Below are positions 3,079-36,717 of a DNA stretch of 64,000 nucleotides, one piece after another. The DNA comes from a virus: positions 124,001 through 188,000 of IMG/VR virus record IMGVR_UViG_3300032236_001613. One strand, 5' to 3'. A program made the translations under genes and the position numbers. The notes beneath the pieces were generated by a model. It did not search any database. It saw nothing but the letters and a program-made list of their open reading frames with translations, and was not told the DNA's origin. Within the stretch, counting starts at the first letter, position 1; each line of letters begins with the position of its first letter.

Positions 3079-5268
3079 ATGAGCCACGATTCTGTTCTCA
3101 GCATTGACAATTTTGAACAGCTCTTAAACGAGGATAATTTCTCTAATCTATTATCATCTTTATCTGGAAAAGATAATTTAGAAGCTTCCTTACAAAAATT
3201 ATCCGAACAAAAAAGAAAAGTTGAAATAAAAAAAACAGTTACTATTTCGGTTCCTGTAACAAAAGTAGCTGTTGTTAAGAAAACTAAATCACGAGTATTA
3301 AGAAAAGAGATTACAATTCTTTTAGCAACTGCATTATATGCGACTAGTTGTGTTGATGTTAAAGAACCTAGATTAATTAATCAAATAGAATTTAAAAATA
3401 ATACTCAAGAAGTAACAAATAATGCTGTTTCAAAAGATCTGCCTATTATAACTACTACCATAAAAAAAGAAACAGTTAGCAATAAACTTGCTAGATTCTT
3501 TTTAACTGGAAATATTCAAGAACCTAATAAAGAAAAAGTTAATTTAGAAGCCGAAAGTCCTAGTGTTGATGATGATGACGATGATAGAATTAAACAACCT
3601 GTAGTTGTATTTGATACTAGACCTGCTAGTGAATTGTTAGCAGAAGCTAAAGCACTTTTATTAGAAAAATCAGGAAATTATGATCAAGCTATTGCTAATT
3701 TAAAATCTATCATTTCAACACAACCTGCAGAATCTGCAAAAGAATCTCACGAAATGTTAGGTTATGCTTATGAAAAATCAAAAAACTTTAACAAAGCTAT
3801 GAAAGAATATCAACGTTATCTAGCAATCTATACTGAAGATAACGAAGATAGAACTCGTGTAAGACAACGTTTAATGAGTTTAGAAATTTTGGAACCTGCA
3901 GGATTTTCAATAGGAAAAATCGATAAAACAAAAGCACCGCATCAGGGAGATAGTTTTGAACTTAACGGAAATACATCTGATTATCTATATGTAACAAAAA
4001 ATAATAATGTAGGTGTTGGCCAAAAATCACAACAGATCAATTTAATATCGGGTGTACAAGCTTCTTTAAAAGAAACACACAACGAATATGAGTTATCTGC
4101 CCGTGTACGTTTTTCTCAGGTGAAAGATTTTAGTGAGTCTGCTGGCAACAGAACTAATTTGTCAAATGCTTACGTAGATTTTGCTAATACATTTAAAGGT
4201 TATAACATAAGAGCAGGCAGACAAAACAGTGTAGCCGGGTCAGTAGGAAGATTTGACGGTGTTTCGGGAGGCCTCAAAGTTTCAGATGATTTAAAAATAT
4301 CAGTTGCAGTTGGTAATCCAGTATTAGGCTCTAATTCAAAATCAAAAAGAGTTTTTGAAGGAATGGAAGTTGATTGGAGAATTAATAATGATTGGGGTAC
4401 TGGACTATATGTTAATCGAGGAGTAGCAGATGGGTTACTAGAAAGAATGGCTATAGGCGGTAGTCTAGATTATAGAACAAACCAAACTAGTCTATTATTA
4501 AGATCTGAATATGACACTGTTTATCATAGCTTAAACTTGATTTCTTTTCAAAGCAATTACTATGCAAAAAACTTTGATGCTTTTGCTATTTTTGAAAGAC
4601 GACGTACTCCGATGCCATATGGAGACGTTGCACTTACTTTAGGCGAATACTCTTTAGATCGACAGTATTATAATTCTATCGGTGATCTATTATTAAAATC
4701 AGGGCTAACATCTAATGAAATTTACAATTATATTTCACAATCTACTCCTATTGCTACATCAGCAGTTGTTGGGGTAAGAAAAAAGATTTCTAAAAATTGG
4801 GAAGTAACTGCAGATGCACAGTCAACTAATTTATCTACAATACCAGGTTTTAATTTAAATCCTAATTTTGAACCTATTCCTATACAAGTAGGAGATAAAC
4901 AAAATTATTCATTAACTGCTCATTTAAAAGGAGAAAATATACTATTACCTAATAATAGTATAGAATTTGCTGCCAATGATTCTACCGGTGGTAGGAAATC
5001 TTCATATATTACTTTTGCAGATAATTTTAAATTTGGTGATAAAAATAGAAATAGTATTTCGACTGTATTAAGAATCGATACTGTCAACGAAGATTATGGA
5101 AAAATAGATACATTATCTGCTATTTTAAGAGGGTTTTATTCTATTACCGACCATACAGTTTTAGAAGGACAATATTCACAATCGTTGACAAAGACTAGAT
5201 CATCCTTATATAATAATCCTACTGATAAAAATCAAAATTTTTATATCGGTTTTAGACATGATTTTTAA
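3079..5268 (+). CDS. TPR protein with C-terminal outer-membrane beta-barrel
   Basis: A 729-residue protein behind a clear GGAGG ribosome-binding site. Residues 1-70 are charged. A basic-hydrophobic segment at 70-90 ends in ATSC with Cys91, like a lipoprotein or signal sequence set unusually far inside. An acidic linker (DDDDDD) precedes two TPR-like helical repeats at about 186-265 (NYDQAIANLK, NFNKAMKEYQRYL). From about 275 to the end the chain alternates polar and aromatic residues and finishes in FRHDF; a terminal Phe is typical of BAM-inserted outer-membrane barrels. The layout recalls BcsC/PgaA-type exporters. The next gene, a c-type cytochrome, overlaps its end by 11 nt, so the pair is probably co-translated; an outer-membrane porin-cytochrome complex is a reasonable inference. 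Confidence 0.7.
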   Translation: MSHDSVLSIDNFEQLLNEDNFSNLLSSLSGKDNLEASLQKLSEQKRKVEIKKTVTISVPVTKVAVVKKTKSRVLRKEITILLATALYATSCVDVKEPRLINQIEFKNNTQEVTNNAVSKDLPIITTTIKKETVSNKLARFFLTGNIQEPNKEKVNLEAESPSVDDDDDDRIKQPVVVFDTRPASELLAEAKALLLEKSGNYDQAIANLKSIISTQPAESAKESHEMLGYAYEKSKNFNKAMKEYQRYLAIYTEDNEDRTRVRQRLMSLEILEPAGFSIGKIDKTKAPHQGDSFELNGNTSDYLYVTKNNNVGVGQKSQQINLISGVQASLKETHNEYELSARVRFSQVKDFSESAGNRTNLSNAYVDFANTFKGYNIRAGRQNSVAGSVGRFDGVSGGLKVSDDLKISVAVGNPVLGSNSKSKRVFEGMEVDWRINNDWGTGLYVNRGVADGLLERMAIGGSLDYRTNQTSLLLRSEYDTVYHSLNLISFQSNYYAKNFDAFAIFERRRTPMPYGDVALTLGEYSLDRQYYNSIGDLLLKSGLTSNEIYNYISQSTPIATSAVVGVRKKISKNWEVTADAQSTNLSTIPGFNLNPNFEPIPIQVGDKQNYSLTAHLKGENILLPNNSIEFAANDSTGGRKSSYITFADNFKFGDKNRNSISTVLRIDTVNEDYGKIDTLSAILRGFYSITDHTVLEGQYSQSLTKTRSSLYNNPTDKNQNFYIGFRHDF

Positions 5269-21253: not shown

Positions 21254-21265
21254 TGGTAGTAAACT

Positions 21266-21317
21266 CTTAAGTAAAGACGGTCTGGACGGGGAGTGCGACC
21301 CTCCCCCACCTCCACCA
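21266..21317 (+). ncRNA. ssrA: tmRNA acceptor (3') piece of a permuted two-piece tmRNA
   Basis: The segment ends in the tRNA-like tail CACCTCC-A-CCA (to 21317). A T-arm is seen as GGGGAG/CTCCCC (21288-21293/21301-21306) around the 7-nt loop TGCGACC. TCTG (21281-21284) can pair with CAGA (21478-21481) of the coding piece to make helix 2, and CACCTCC (21307-21313) pairs with GGGGGTG (21460-21466) to close the acceptor stem with one G-U. The acceptor piece comes before the coding piece, so the gene is circularly permuted. The 5' end is approximate. Confidence 0.85.
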
Positions 21318-21329
21318 TAGGTACATTTG

Positions 21330-21446
21330 ATGCGAAAAATATTTGTAGTTGGGTTTTTAATGTTGTTGGCGGTCTTTGGTATATATAAGATTTTAAAATA
21401 TTCAGCTGACCATCCAACACAATGTAATATGTGGCACAGATGTTAA
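21330..21446 (+). CDS. Possible 38-aa membrane peptide inside tmRNA spacer
   Basis: Open frame of 38 codons lying wholly between the two tmRNA pieces. It encodes a basic start, one hydrophobic helix (IFVVGFLMLLAVFGIYKIL) and a Cys/His-containing tail (CNMWHRC). Only a weak AGGT precedes the ATG. RNase processing of the tmRNA precursor would cut this region out, so it may be translated from the spacer RNA or not at all. Confidence 0.35.
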   Translation: MRKIFVVGFLMLLAVFGIYKILKYSADHPTQCNMWHRC

Positions 21447-21459
21447 GTGTATCTATGTC

Positions 21460-21656
21460 GGGGGTGCGTAGTTTCGACAGAGTGTGTAATAGTCAAAGGG
21501 CTACTGGTGAGATGACTGACCTAATCAGCATAAACAAAAATAAATGCTAATGACAGTGTTTATGATGTTGCTATCGCTGCTTAATTGCAGTCTAGTAAAC
21601 AGAGTTTGATCACTCGGTAACAGAACGGTCAGATAAAGGAGCTTCGGCTCCTTTAT
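21460..21656 (+). ncRNA. ssrA: tmRNA coding (5') piece; tag ANDSVYDVAIAA
   Basis: Starts GGGGGTGCGTAGTTTCGACAG, the conserved tmRNA 5' end with D-loop. The resume codon GCT is at 21546, and the frame reads A-N-D-S-V-Y-D-V-A-I-A-A then TAA (21582-21584). The tag begins with the proteobacterial AND and ends in AIAA where ALAA is usual. It is followed by structured RNA and a 10-bp terminator hairpin. Paired with the acceptor piece upstream it forms a trans-translation RNA that rescues stalled ribosomes and marks the unfinished protein for ClpXP. The window also encodes ClpX. Confidence 0.92.
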
Positions 21657-26212: not shown

Positions 26213-26591
26213 AATTACTTTAATCACACCACCTGACATTTTTCAAAACGATCAAGAAAGTATACTATTTGTTGATCTAACCACCGAAGATCAAGATGCT
26301 GTAATTAAATATTTTACTAACGTTGATTATAGTATTAATATCTATTTTTATAGTGGTGAAGCAAACGTACCTTGGTTAATGCATGCCCTTTCTTGTAGCA
26401 ATTATCGTTATATTAACTTAAATAACATGTCGGCTATAACAAGCTATTTGATAGCTTATATACTGTCAAAACAAGATGTATTTTACTCGATTGAGGATAA
26501 CAGTGTGGCTGAGATTTATAGTCACATTAATTTAAATCGTGTTAATAATGCTATTGAATTTTTAAAGAAGGTTTACAGTGACAACAAATAA
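26202..26591 (+). CDS. Conserved phage protein, function unknown
   Basis: 129 residues, alpha/beta with strands KITLITPP and SILFVDLT and a helix INLNNMSAITSYLIAYILSKQ. Overlaps both neighbours (11 and 14 nt), so it is in the operon that ends with clpX and rpsU. No motif known to me. Confidence 0.55.
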   Translation: MPAKITLITPPDIFQNDQESILFVDLTTEDQDAVIKYFTNVDYSINIYFYSGEANVPWLMHALSCSNYRYINLNNMSAITSYLIAYILSKQDVFYSIEDNSVAEIYSHINLNRVNNAIEFLKKVYSDNK

Positions 26592-27822
26592 AAATCATGT
26601 TTGCGACTTTTGTCAAAAGGCAAAAGAAGATGTCGAAAAACTTATTGTCGGCGATAATGCTGCTATTTGTAACGACTGTGTAGAACTATGCATTAGTATC
26701 TTAGATGAAGATAAAGTAAAGAAATTCCCGTTAGGTGATAATAAAAATTTACTAAATCCTGTGCATATTAAAGAATATTTAGATCAGTATGTTATTGGTC
26801 AAGAAAATGCAAAAATTGCTCTTAGTGTAGCAGTATGCCAACATTTTAAAAGAGTGTTCACTGATGTTAAAGACATTGAAATTGAAAAAACTAATGTATT
26901 AATTTTAGGACCTACTGGGTGTGGTAAAACTATGCTAGCTAAAAAGCTAGCAGAATACCTTAACGTACCTTTTGCTATTTGTGATGCAACTGGCTTAACA
27001 GAAGCTGGATACGTGGGCGACGATGTTGAGAGCGTATTAAATCGTTTAATTTCAGCAGCCGACGGCGATATTGATAAAGCTAAACAAGGTATTGTTTATA
27101 TTGACGAAATTGATAAACTAAGTCGTAAAGGTGAAAACACTAGTCTTACACGAGATGTTGGTGGAGAAGGTGTTCAACAAGGTCTACTAAAAATGATCGA
27201 AGGATCAGTAATACGAGTACCTGCTGCAGATAAGCGTAAGCATCCTAGAGGCGACATGATTGAAGTTGATACAAAAAACATATTGTTTATATGTGGCGGT
27301 GCATTTGTTGGGTTAGATAAGATTATTAACCGTAGAAATAAATCAGGTGCAGTTGGATTCGGAGCATCAGTAACGTCAAATAAAGATACATTAGGTTATA
27401 GCGATGTAATTACTAAAGATTTAATTACTTTCGGACTGATACCTGAATTTATCGGACGTTTCGGATTAATTACACATGTTGACGAATTAAGTGTAGACGA
27501 TTTGGTAAAAATACTTAAAGAACCAAAAAACAGTTTAATCAGTCAATATAAACATTTATTTGCTATCGACGGCATTGAATTAGAATTTAAAGACGAAGCA
27601 CTAAAGGAGGTTGCAGAAAAAAGTAAACAACTTCAAACAAATGCTAGAGGCTTAAAAAACATTTTAGAAAAAATCTTATTAAATTATCAATTCGAAGCAA
27701 TGGATCTTGTTCAGCGAGGCCTCAGTAAAATTGTGATAAGTAAAGAAGCAGTTCATGGTAAATCTGCTGAATTAATTTTTAATAAAACAAAGAAGAAGTT
27801 AAATTATGAAAGTAATAGTTAA
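26578..27822 (+). CDS. clpX: ATP-dependent unfoldase ClpX
   Basis: 414 residues (E. coli 424), GTG start with AAGAAGG upstream. The N-terminal zinc domain has Cys9, Cys12, Cys31 and Cys34. Walker A GPTGCGKT is at 111-118, pore loop GYVG near 144, Walker B VYIDEID near 173, and the second pore loop RKGENTSLTRDVGGEGVQQ follows. The RKH loop used for ssrA-tag recognition is present (DKRKHPRG). The ClpP-docking IGF tripeptide appears as VGF (SGAVGFGAS). No ClpP is in this window, so it likely works with host ClpP. Coupled to bS21 downstream; the phage also makes a tmRNA whose tag is a ClpX substrate type. Confidence 0.95.
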   Translation: MTTNKNHVCDFCQKAKEDVEKLIVGDNAAICNDCVELCISILDEDKVKKFPLGDNKNLLNPVHIKEYLDQYVIGQENAKIALSVAVCQHFKRVFTDVKDIEIEKTNVLILGPTGCGKTMLAKKLAEYLNVPFAICDATGLTEAGYVGDDVESVLNRLISAADGDIDKAKQGIVYIDEIDKLSRKGENTSLTRDVGGEGVQQGLLKMIEGSVIRVPAADKRKHPRGDMIEVDTKNILFICGGAFVGLDKIINRRNKSGAVGFGASVTSNKDTLGYSDVITKDLITFGLIPEFIGRFGLITHVDELSVDDLVKILKEPKNSLISQYKHLFAIDGIELEFKDEALKEVAEKSKQLQTNARGLKNILEKILLNYQFEAMDLVQRGLSKIVISKEAVHGKSAELIFNKTKKKLNYESNS

Positions 27823-30667: not shown

Positions 30668-30696
30668 TTGACAATTAGGTAAAAGTTAATTATAAT
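30668..30696 (+). promoter_or_regulatory. Consensus sigma70 promoter TTGACA-17-TATAAT
   Basis: Perfect host housekeeping promoter starting exactly after the stop of the previous gene. Transcription should begin about 30703, 210 nt before the next coding start. Confidence 0.9.
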
Positions 30697-30702
30697 ATCT
30701 GC

Positions 30703-30902
30703 ATAGTTTGAAATTAAGGATAGGTACAGCAATTCATAATCAATATGGAACGCTAATACATTGTATTAGATAGAGTGGTTTCGACAGTTCCGCTCGATAA
30801 ACATAAAAAGTAGATAACTATCCTGTTTTTAAATTAGGTTAAGTTCCGCAACTAAAAATCGCTCAATGGCTGTCTACTAGGACGTTAAACTAGTTTTAAC
30901 CT
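30703..30902 (+). ncRNA. Structured leader or Y-RNA-like ncRNA before Ro60-like gene
   Basis: A 210-nt non-coding stretch with several helices: AGGATAG/CTATCCT (30717-30723/30818-30824) encloses hairpins CTAATAC/GTATTAG (30753-30769) and GAGTGG/CCGCTC (30773-30795, loop TTTCGACAGTT); a second domain is closed by AGGTTAA/TTAACCT (30836-30842/30896-30902). Ro60 homologues are often encoded next to the Y RNA they bind. It may instead be a regulatory 5' leader, since the ribosome site follows at 30905. It contains GTTTCGACAG, identical to the tmRNA D-loop at 21471. Confidence 0.55.
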
Positions 30903-30914
30903 GTAAGGAGAATA

Positions 30915-32318
30915 ATGATGAATATGTTTGCAGAAGCAGTTAAAGAAGTACAAATCGAAACTCGTACCATTAACGGTATGAAAACTTTCGATTCCAGCAA
31001 GAGTCGTCTCGTTGACTTGTTCTTTGCAATCGGTGCAAGCCGTGGAAAAGACTTAAGCGCCGAATTCCACCGTGCTCTTGCTGAAGATAAAACGCTAGCA
31101 CTTCGCTTGCTCATGTGGGCTCGCGATGTTCGCGGTGGGGCAGGCGAGCGAGATGTTGTTCGCACTATCTTGCTTAGTCTGGAAAAGAAAGATCCAGATG
31201 TGTTGAAGCGTGTGCTTCCGCACCTAGCTGAGTTCGGCCGCTGGGATGACTTGTTGATTTTCGAGCATGATCCGGAAATCAAGAGCATGGCGTTTGATCT
31301 CATCCACGCAGCTCTTAAGGCCGGCAACGGTCTTTGTGCTAAGTGGATGCCTCGTAAGGGCGAGAAGGCGGCAGAGTTGCGTAATGCACTTGGTATGAGT
31401 CCTAAGACTTATCGCAAAACTCTAGTCAATTTGACTAAGGTTGTTGAGCAGAATATGTGTGCTAACGACTGGACTAACATTAACTACAACCACGTTCCTA
31501 GCGTGGCTGCTAGTCGTTACCAGAAAGCGTTTAAGAAGCACGACCCAGAGGGTTATGAAGCGTATGCTTCTAAACTCGAAAAGGGTGAAGCTAAGATTAA
31601 TGCTGGTGCGGTTTATCCGTATGACATTATCAAGGCACACAATGCAGGCGGTAATGTAAAGGTTGTTACTGCGCAATGGGAAGCATTGCCTAACTACATC
31701 GGTGATGAGTTAATCCTTCCGATGGTGGACGTTTCAGGCTCTATGTCTGTGCCAATTGGTAGCAACAAGAACCTGCAATGTATCGACGTTGCAGTTAGCT
31801 TAGGTTTATATCTTGCTGATAAGAATACCGGTCCGTTTAAGGATATGTTCTTAACTTTCTCGAGTGATCCGGAGCTACAAATTCTTAAGGGCGACCTCAT
31901 TAAGAAAATTGCACAGCTACAAAAAGCTGATTGGGCTATGAGCACCGATCTTAATAAAGCATTTGAGTTAATTCTCAATTACGCTGTTAAGGGCAAAGTT
32001 GCAACTAAGGACATGCCTCAGTATGTGCTCATCTTGTCAGATATGGAGTTTAATCAGTGCACACGACACAATGACAGTGCTATGCAAATGATCGTACGTA
32101 AGTACGAAGCTGCCGGCTACGAGGTTCCGAATATTATTTTCTGGAATCTAGCAGCACGTAGCGGAAACGTTCCAGTTAAGTATGACAAGAAAGGTACTGC
32201 ATTAATTTCCGGATTCAGCCCGGCAATCATGACTTCGGTTCTAGCAGCTAAGAGTATTACTCCGATAGATGTGATGCTTGAGACTCTAAACAAGCCACGT
32301 TACGCTGTTATCAGCTAA
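30915..32318 (+). CDS. Ro60/TROVE-like (DUF2828-type) RNA-binding vWA protein
   Basis: 467 residues behind AAGGAG (a second ATG 3 nt later is equally possible). The N-terminal ~260 residues are helical repeats, with the conserved-looking WARDVRGGAGERDVV (near 68-82), of the sort forming the Ro ring. The C-terminal part is a von Willebrand A fold with the MIDAS motif DVSGSMS at 272-278, followed by FSSDPELQ, STDLNKAF and LSDMEFNQ. Family members bind misfolded or Y RNAs (Ro60), or are known as DUF2828 in plants, bacteria and large viruses. This gene is clearly more GC-rich than its neighbours, which suggests separate acquisition or codon optimisation for high expression. It ends at a strong terminator. 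Confidence 0.75.
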   Translation: MMNMFAEAVKEVQIETRTINGMKTFDSSKSRLVDLFFAIGASRGKDLSAEFHRALAEDKTLALRLLMWARDVRGGAGERDVVRTILLSLEKKDPDVLKRVLPHLAEFGRWDDLLIFEHDPEIKSMAFDLIHAALKAGNGLCAKWMPRKGEKAAELRNALGMSPKTYRKTLVNLTKVVEQNMCANDWTNINYNHVPSVAASRYQKAFKKHDPEGYEAYASKLEKGEAKINAGAVYPYDIIKAHNAGGNVKVVTAQWEALPNYIGDELILPMVDVSGSMSVPIGSNKNLQCIDVAVSLGLYLADKNTGPFKDMFLTFSSDPELQILKGDLIKKIAQLQKADWAMSTDLNKAFELILNYAVKGKVATKDMPQYVLILSDMEFNQCTRHNDSAMQMIVRKYEAAGYEVPNIIFWNLAARSGNVPVKYDKKGTALISGFSPAIMTSVLAAKSITPIDVMLETLNKPRYAVIS

Positions 32319-32323
32319 CATAG

Positions 32324-32350
32324 AAAAGGCCCGTAAGGGCCTTTTTTATT
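32324..32350. terminator. Terminator between convergent genes
   Basis: 9-bp stem AAAAGGCCC/GGGCCTTTT, loop GTAA, T-run downstream and A-run upstream, so it can end transcription from both sides. Confidence 0.9.
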
Positions 32351-36201: not shown

Positions 36202-36717
36202 ACTAAGGCACACTCACTGGCATAAACATAGGCACATCAATCAACGCTTAAGCTCGCACCGGCTAATTTCGGGTGCCTATGATAACCGGACAACAAAGTC
36301 GCGGGGACAGAAATCCTGTGTGTTGACAGGAACTCAGCCACTACCCCTTCAGGGATGATGATGGAATATGCCTATATAATCCGTTTGGCTAAGATAAAAA
36401 TACTAAGGCTCTTTTGATCGCGGCTCTGTGAAAAAGATACAACCGCAAATACTACATATCTGCTAACATCGGTGTGTAGCGTTCCCGTTAGATTGAAGTT
36501 AGGAATAAGAAGTACAGGCTAACCGCTTCTGCGCAGCAATGCAATTTCCGAATGTTAGTGACCAACGAACTCAGGTAATAATCGTTAGAAAATCTTCGCC
36601 CTGTTTTGGGCGAAGTATGACATTAAAATCTAGGTAATCAATTCACTCTTAATAATTTTTCTCTTTCTTATAAAAGGTGATGAGCGCGAGCGAAATCACG
36701 GGCGAATCCTTTCGCCC
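36202..36717 (+). ncRNA. Large structured non-coding RNA candidate
   Basis: About 515 nt with no coding frame of note, GC-richer than the intergenic background, and a sigma70 promoter at its 5' end. Helices visible by eye: CATAGGCAC/GTGCCTATG (36227-36235/36273-36281); CCTGT/ACAGG near 36315; a long-range helix CTAACAT+CGG/CCG+ATGTTAG (36463-36472/36548-36558, one bulged A); AGAAG/CTTCT near 36508; CTTCGCCC/GGGCGAAG (36594-36615); GGGCGAA/TTCGCCC (36700-36717). Size and phage setting recall ornate phage RNAs (GOLLD, ROOL), but I cannot match it to a class. The 3' end could be either late hairpin. Confidence 0.7.

Follow-up and report, generated by a model that had tools for sequence, protein, structure and literature searches.

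Ro60 is a human autoantigen for which Y RNAs serve as gate, tether or decoy, and Y RNAs as a class are already known from both bacteria and phages. A bacterial Ro60/Rsr-Y RNA particle, RYPER, has been described, and the basal stem of Y RNAs binds the Ro-like protein while their distal tRNA-like domain binds PNPase (PMC8394870). For Listeria phage CKA15, Y RNAs were proposed upstream of CKA15_055, a homologue of the protein analyzed here; the portions of that article cited here report abundant ncRNAs upstream of the homologue, with the top ncRNA region at 26,236-26,727, and propose no motif or structure for the putative Y RNAs (PMC12282133). The same portions report that 20 peptides (57.1% coverage) of the CKA15_055 protein were detected in purified virions, with the caution that not all detected proteins are necessarily part of the particle, and for mycobacteriophages they refer to Chen et al. 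2014 (PMC12282133). A literature search on DUF2828 found nothing relevant; some copies of the RNA module described below may already have been noticed in earlier Y RNA surveys such as that of Chen et al. 2014.

The sequence studied here, hereafter the window, consists of bases 124001-188000 (64,000 nucleotides) of a 328,068-base virus record; related loci are cited by number (L001 and so on). An initial annotation had described a Ro60-like ORF behind a perfect consensus promoter and a structured leader. Window coordinates of the locus and of the phage tmRNA are as follows.

21255-21584: phage tmRNA, where the Rfam models permuted tmRNA (120.2 bits) and beta_tmRNA give overlapping matches; not called by ARAGORN
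30668..30696, plus strand: sigma-70 type promoter TTGACA-17-TATAAT, 12/12 consensus positions
~30704-30914, plus strand: noncoding leader between promoter and ORF
30717..30824, plus strand: RNA module 1, with stem AGGATAG (30717-30723)/CTATCCT (30818-30824), GT-A, CAGCAA (30727-30732), a variable domain, then GTT
30773..30795, plus strand: hairpin GAGTGG-UUUCGACAGUU-CCGCTC within module 1, from the computed fold, carrying GTTTCGACAG (30778-30787)
30836..30902, plus strand: RNA module 2 (variant), with stem AGGTTAA (30836-30842)/TTAACCT (30896-30902), GT-T and CCGCAA (30846-30851)
30905..30910, plus strand: Shine-Dalgarno (SD) sequence AAGGAG, adjoining the closing strand of module 2, supported by position statistics over relatives
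30915..32318, plus strand: gene of the Ro60-fold protein, a 467-aa ORF with DUF2828 and a DUF7788 vWA domain that contains a MIDAS-like DVSGSM
32328..32347, plus strand: likely intrinsic terminator GGCCC-GTAA-GGGCC-TTTTTT, read by eye from the sequence

The promoter is indeed a perfect match to the consensus, and it is kept or nearly so in L001, L002 and L030. With this promoter before it and a terminator hairpin after it, the latter not listed by the terminator scan, the DUF2828 gene looks like a single-gene unit; judging from relatives, its true start is possibly the second ATG, at 30918. The initial description of the locus was confirmed, and what it describes proved to extend further than first stated. 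The whole leader folds no better than shuffles (z -0.66), but module 1 alone folds better (MFE z -2.43), and comparing relatives brings out real structure. The module 2 variant GTTCCGCA is also present in L001, L002, L030, L066 and L072. No Rfam family matched in the leader. Elsewhere in the window, a Polynucleobacter-1 RNA (91.2 bits) lies at 36251-36391, followed by an apparently noncoding, structured stretch to about 36620.

A domain search matched the ORF to DUF2828 and DUF7788, and it falls in PHROG 850 ('RNA-binding protein'); 680 relatives occur among 50,697 phage records, with hosts as varied as Mycobacterium, Listeria, Escherichia and Vibrio. The TROVE HMM (PF05731) matched neither the protein nor anything else in the whole 328-kb genome. 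A single-protein sequence query of the PDB gave no match, and a PDB profile search reached TROVE structures only at E 0.17. The fold was assigned by prediction, using an AlphaFold2 model built from 40 relatives (pLDDT 92.4, pTM 0.90), in which the helical-repeat ring and C-terminal vWA domain of Ro60/Rsr are both present. This model aligned with Xenopus Ro (1yvr) over 400 residues at Z 21.2 and rmsd 3.7; for 1yvp, the Ro-RNA complex, Z was 20.9, whereas unrelated vWA structures reached at most about Z 10; the top Foldseek matches were the TROVE structures 9kop and 9l5y. The original reading of the ORF as Ro60-like is therefore upheld, and because a Z of about 21 to Ro coexists with a TROVE HMM that does not match, the DUF2828 protein is, as modeled, a full Ro60 fold that by sequence lies outside the TROVE family.

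The RNA module was noticed as a repeat on reading the upstream regions of relatives. A basal stem of 7 bp opens the module; CAGCAA (or CCGCAA) lies exactly 3 nt past its 5' strand, a variable domain comes next, and after the closing strand there is a G, often followed by U. Spacing from stem to CAGCAA is fixed, while loops vary from about 12 to 300 nt, and beyond the handle lies a short loop, a covarying multi-hairpin domain (as in the window leader) or a circularly permuted tRNA-like domain. When perfect 7-bp stems were tallied against the distance from stem to CAGCA, there was a single sharp peak at spacing 3, with 203 stems versus 0-14 at other spacings in 80 IMG/VR loci, 185 versus 2-13 in 80 bacterial loci, and 36 versus 0-2 in 19 named phage loci. 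The reverse strand gave 3, 6 and 0, respectively, at the same spacing. At least one module was present within 3 kb of the DUF2828 gene in 77/80 IMG/VR loci and 70/80 bacterial loci from very different hosts. No strict module was found within 2.5 kb in 7 of the 19 named phage loci; some of these show variants (TCAACAA), and copies may lie elsewhere in their genomes. Some loci have a single minimal module at the gene start (L004, L011), others arrays of up to 7-8 copies; arrays downstream of the gene occur in L023, L027 and L028.

Most modules were found with the stem criterion itself; the evidence free of this circularity is the spacing contrast, the strand contrast and a CAGCA-anchored test, which was run because the spacing count requires pairing. 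Anchored on CAGCA and the inner 3' motif only, with pairing not required, this test yielded 45 modules with eight different stem pairings, all paired over 7 positions (43 entirely Watson-Crick, 2 with one G-U). In a 13-sequence alignment, 21 of 36 predicted consensus pairs, inner arms included, had a compensatory change. As in a Y RNA, the two ends of the RNA pair to form a basal stem that carries a conserved handle, and its gene lies beside a Ro gene. The spacing peak, the stem test and the scan of the phage's own genome (below) place the leader RNA in a Y-RNA-like module family tied to DUF2828 proteins, in agreement with the pairing first suggested for this locus. Rfam 15 at its cut-offs has no family for the module in the loci searched. 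A conserved domain of ~230 nt, GGAACTGA..GAC..GGAAAGAC ... GGAACTGAACCGATATACTGGGGA, was also observed inside modules of L003 (3705-3940), L006 (887-1140), L032-L040 and L053, with no Rfam match in L003, L006 or L053.

When the full 328-kb genome was scanned for the strict consensus AGGN4-N3-C[AC]GCAA...CCTG, exactly five matches came up, all on one strand; 60 simulated genomes gave none. Two of the five are the leader modules; the other three are some 43 kb distant, each in a gap between tRNA genes, at these record positions:

197543-197598, same strand as the leader modules: trans module in the gap tRNA-Ser / tRNA-Ile
198448-198560, same strand as the leader modules: trans module, the tRNA-like sibling, in the gap tRNA-Met / tRNA-Cys
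199230-199288, same strand as the leader modules: trans module in the gap tRNA-Leu / tRNA-Trp

Distant copies also occur in several related phages. Record positions 194408-203999, outside the window, hold 25 ARAGORN tRNA genes interleaved with protein genes and the three Y-like modules.

The initial annotation had pointed to Y RNAs with a tRNA-like module and to YrlA covariance models as a comparison. No tRNA-like module is recognizable in the leader; one is present in the sibling RNA ~43.7 kb downstream, in which the T arm, the D arm and an acceptor helix capped by a short loop appear in permuted order. Folded alone by free energy, the sibling recovered the basal stem, T arm and acceptor helix and no canonical D arm. 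The YrlA model (RF02553) at the Rfam cut-off matched neither the leader nor any searched DUF2828-type locus; the sibling scored 44.1 bits (E 3.8e-9), short of the curated threshold of 69, its alignment fitting in the tRNA-like portion and showing mismatches along the basal stem. Modules with permuted tRNA-like domains were seen as well in L022, L023 (Mycobacterium phage Whirlwind), L040, L055, L056, L060, L066, L121, L142 and L161. Separately, tRNA-like genes, mostly 103-114 nt, were seen in L010 (about 4110-4190 and 4211-4324), L013 (3715-3827), L007 (129-242) and L008 (3727-3829), with the anticodon arm apparently swapped for a permuted CAGCAA/CTGCAA handle.

In order to provide controls, TROVE relatives were sought in IMG/VR with one Firmicutes protein as query; none were found, and named TROVE phages were therefore taken instead. 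In this small set of six TROVE-type Ro60 loci, including Thermus phage phiLo (9l5y), Xanthomonas phage Olaya and Streptomyces phage Quantum, the gene strand carried no CAGCAA module at any locus; one locus had three chance-like matches on the reverse strand. Six Firmicutes TROVE loci had no modules apart from one weak chance-like match in L208, and none were found in 40 kb of T4 including its tRNA cluster; rnaC and rnaD, stable RNAs of T4, lack a strict module. In L212, L214 and L215, reading by eye of the region upstream of the TROVE gene revealed arrays that repeat GGTTACTTC ... GTTCCC or close to it and surround permuted tRNA-like domains similar to those in CAGCAA modules. Six bacteria with DUF2828 had no TROVE at all. 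TROVE loci that lack CAGCAA and carry another motif suggest, from few controls and at the sequence level, that two Ro systems exist in parallel, each with a recognition motif of its own.

Three other explanations of the leader RNA were weighed. According to the initial annotation, it might mimic or regulate tmRNA via GTTTCGACAG, said to be identical to a stretch of the tmRNA D-loop. The identity was confirmed: the 10-mer occurs exactly twice in the 328-kb genome, in the leader and in the tmRNA at about 21471. Conservation in related phages, however, extends to the module and not to this motif. Among 35 aligned homologues, GTTTCGACAG is kept only in the window and the near-identical L001; the others have GTTTCGATAA or an unrelated hairpin in its place, about half of them a different hairpin, and at most GTTTCGA of the region is conserved. 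Rfam gave no tmRNA-like match in the leader. The shared 10-mer is best regarded as coincidence on this alignment, and we reject the tmRNA link as scarcely credible. Apart from this, tmRNA-like genes lie near phage Ro genes of both types, in L217 (7768-8025) and L060 (1297-1623), both matching Rfam permuted tmRNA and L060 also alpha_tmRNA.

It is very improbable that the modules have nothing to do with the protein and are selfish or structural repeats, for example tRNA-operon processing or transcription-pausing signals. The location of three of the five own-genome copies in tRNA gaps would suit such repeats, but the association with DUF2828 genes across very different hosts (77/80 viral and 70/80 bacterial loci within 3 kb) would not, nor would the lack of modules around phage TROVE genes and across 40 kb of T4 with its tRNA cluster, small as this control set is. 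A somewhat better, though still improbable, alternative is that the modules act only as cis translational operators of the DUF2828 gene, as an autoregulatory leader, and are not partner RNAs. The last module abuts the SD in most relatives, and in L004 and L011 a single minimal module is found there; three modules ~43 kb off between tRNA genes of the same genome, distant copies in related phages, arrays of up to 7-8 copies, downstream arrays (L023, L027, L028) and tRNA-like inserts do not fit an operator.

We therefore consider it likely that the locus is a phage Ro-type RNP with Y-like RNAs that use a different recognition motif. The DUF2828 protein, with its predicted helical-repeat ring and vWA domain, would bind related phage RNAs at a site that they all share, made up of the 7-bp basal stem, 3 nt, unpaired CAGCAA on the 5' strand and G(U) after the closing strand. 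By analogy with Y RNAs, the CAGCAA stem is likely the protein handle and the variable domain the effector, probably a gate, tether or decoy as for Ro60. Inter-tRNA copies are probably freed by tRNA processing and would act in trans. The last module ends at most 25 nt from the start codon in 55/65 viral loci, with an SD-like sequence between them in 54; gene compactness alone could explain this proximity. Since bound protein at a module adjoining the SD should block ribosomes, the arrangement suggests autoregulation of the DUF2828 gene that trans RNAs could relieve: free Ro-like protein would probably repress its own translation until titrated by them. RNA ligase genes neighbor the Ro-like gene in L014, L017 and L019, and a tRNA-splicing-ligase gene does so in L026, a hint from gene order of a role in RNA repair or quality control.

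The CKA15 transcriptome offers only indirect support for this RNP, because its top ncRNA region corresponds to about L026 992-1483 (Listeria phage LMSP-25), where there is no CAGCAA module. A three-module array does lie in the DUF2828 leader of LMSP-25 (L026 2167-2429), a region 96.7% identical in CKA15. L026 also has long noncoding stretches at 480-840 and 920-1560, the second of which matches the CKA15 top ncRNA region.

DUF2828 protein and module are paired likewise in many further phages and in gut bacteria, which makes the pairing look like a common relative of the Ro60-Y RNA particle that has so far escaped cataloguing. On a broader proposal we are evenly divided: that DUF2828 proteins make up another Ro RNP lineage, parallel to the first, which recognizes RNA by a code of its own and occurs in phages of many hosts and on Firmicutes chromosomes. 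In this proposal each would carry a set of effector RNAs, exchangeable on a shared handle (some being tRNAs in which the handle takes the place of the anticodon arm), with an autoregulatory copy at the Ro gene, and in some phages the virion may bring the protein into the cell. Most annotations of phage and bacterial DUF2828 proteins read hypothetical or merely RNA-binding; given a defined RNA partner of simple signature, their function can be tested directly. Ro biology would gain a second recognition system for comparison with Y RNAs, dozens of uncatalogued small RNAs are predicted in well-known Listeria, Campylobacter, Mycobacterium, Escherichia and Aeromonas phages, and there may be a handle on why many phages encode tRNA mimics and Ro-like proteins during takeover of host translation.

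Compared with TROVE phage loci, DUF2828 loci share the Ro60 fold and, with some of them, upstream arrays holding permuted tRNA-like inserts; the array motif there is GGTTACTTC ... GTTCCC and not CAGCAA. Similar to bacterial Ro60/Rsr-Y RNA, this locus combines a Ro60-fold protein, adjoining genes, a basal stem that joins the RNA ends and a variable distal domain, but the protein matches DUF2828/DUF7788 and not TROVE. Some copies resemble YrlA in having tRNA-like D, T and acceptor arms, here in the sibling RNA only and not in the window leader, and even the best YrlA score remains under the Rfam cut-off (44.1 bits versus 69). Unlike YrlA and RYPER systems, modules occur in arrays, between tRNA genes and at the SD of the gene. 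The handle NNxCAGCAA...G(U) appears to set these RNAs apart from Y RNAs, which they resemble in their paired ends and gene position.
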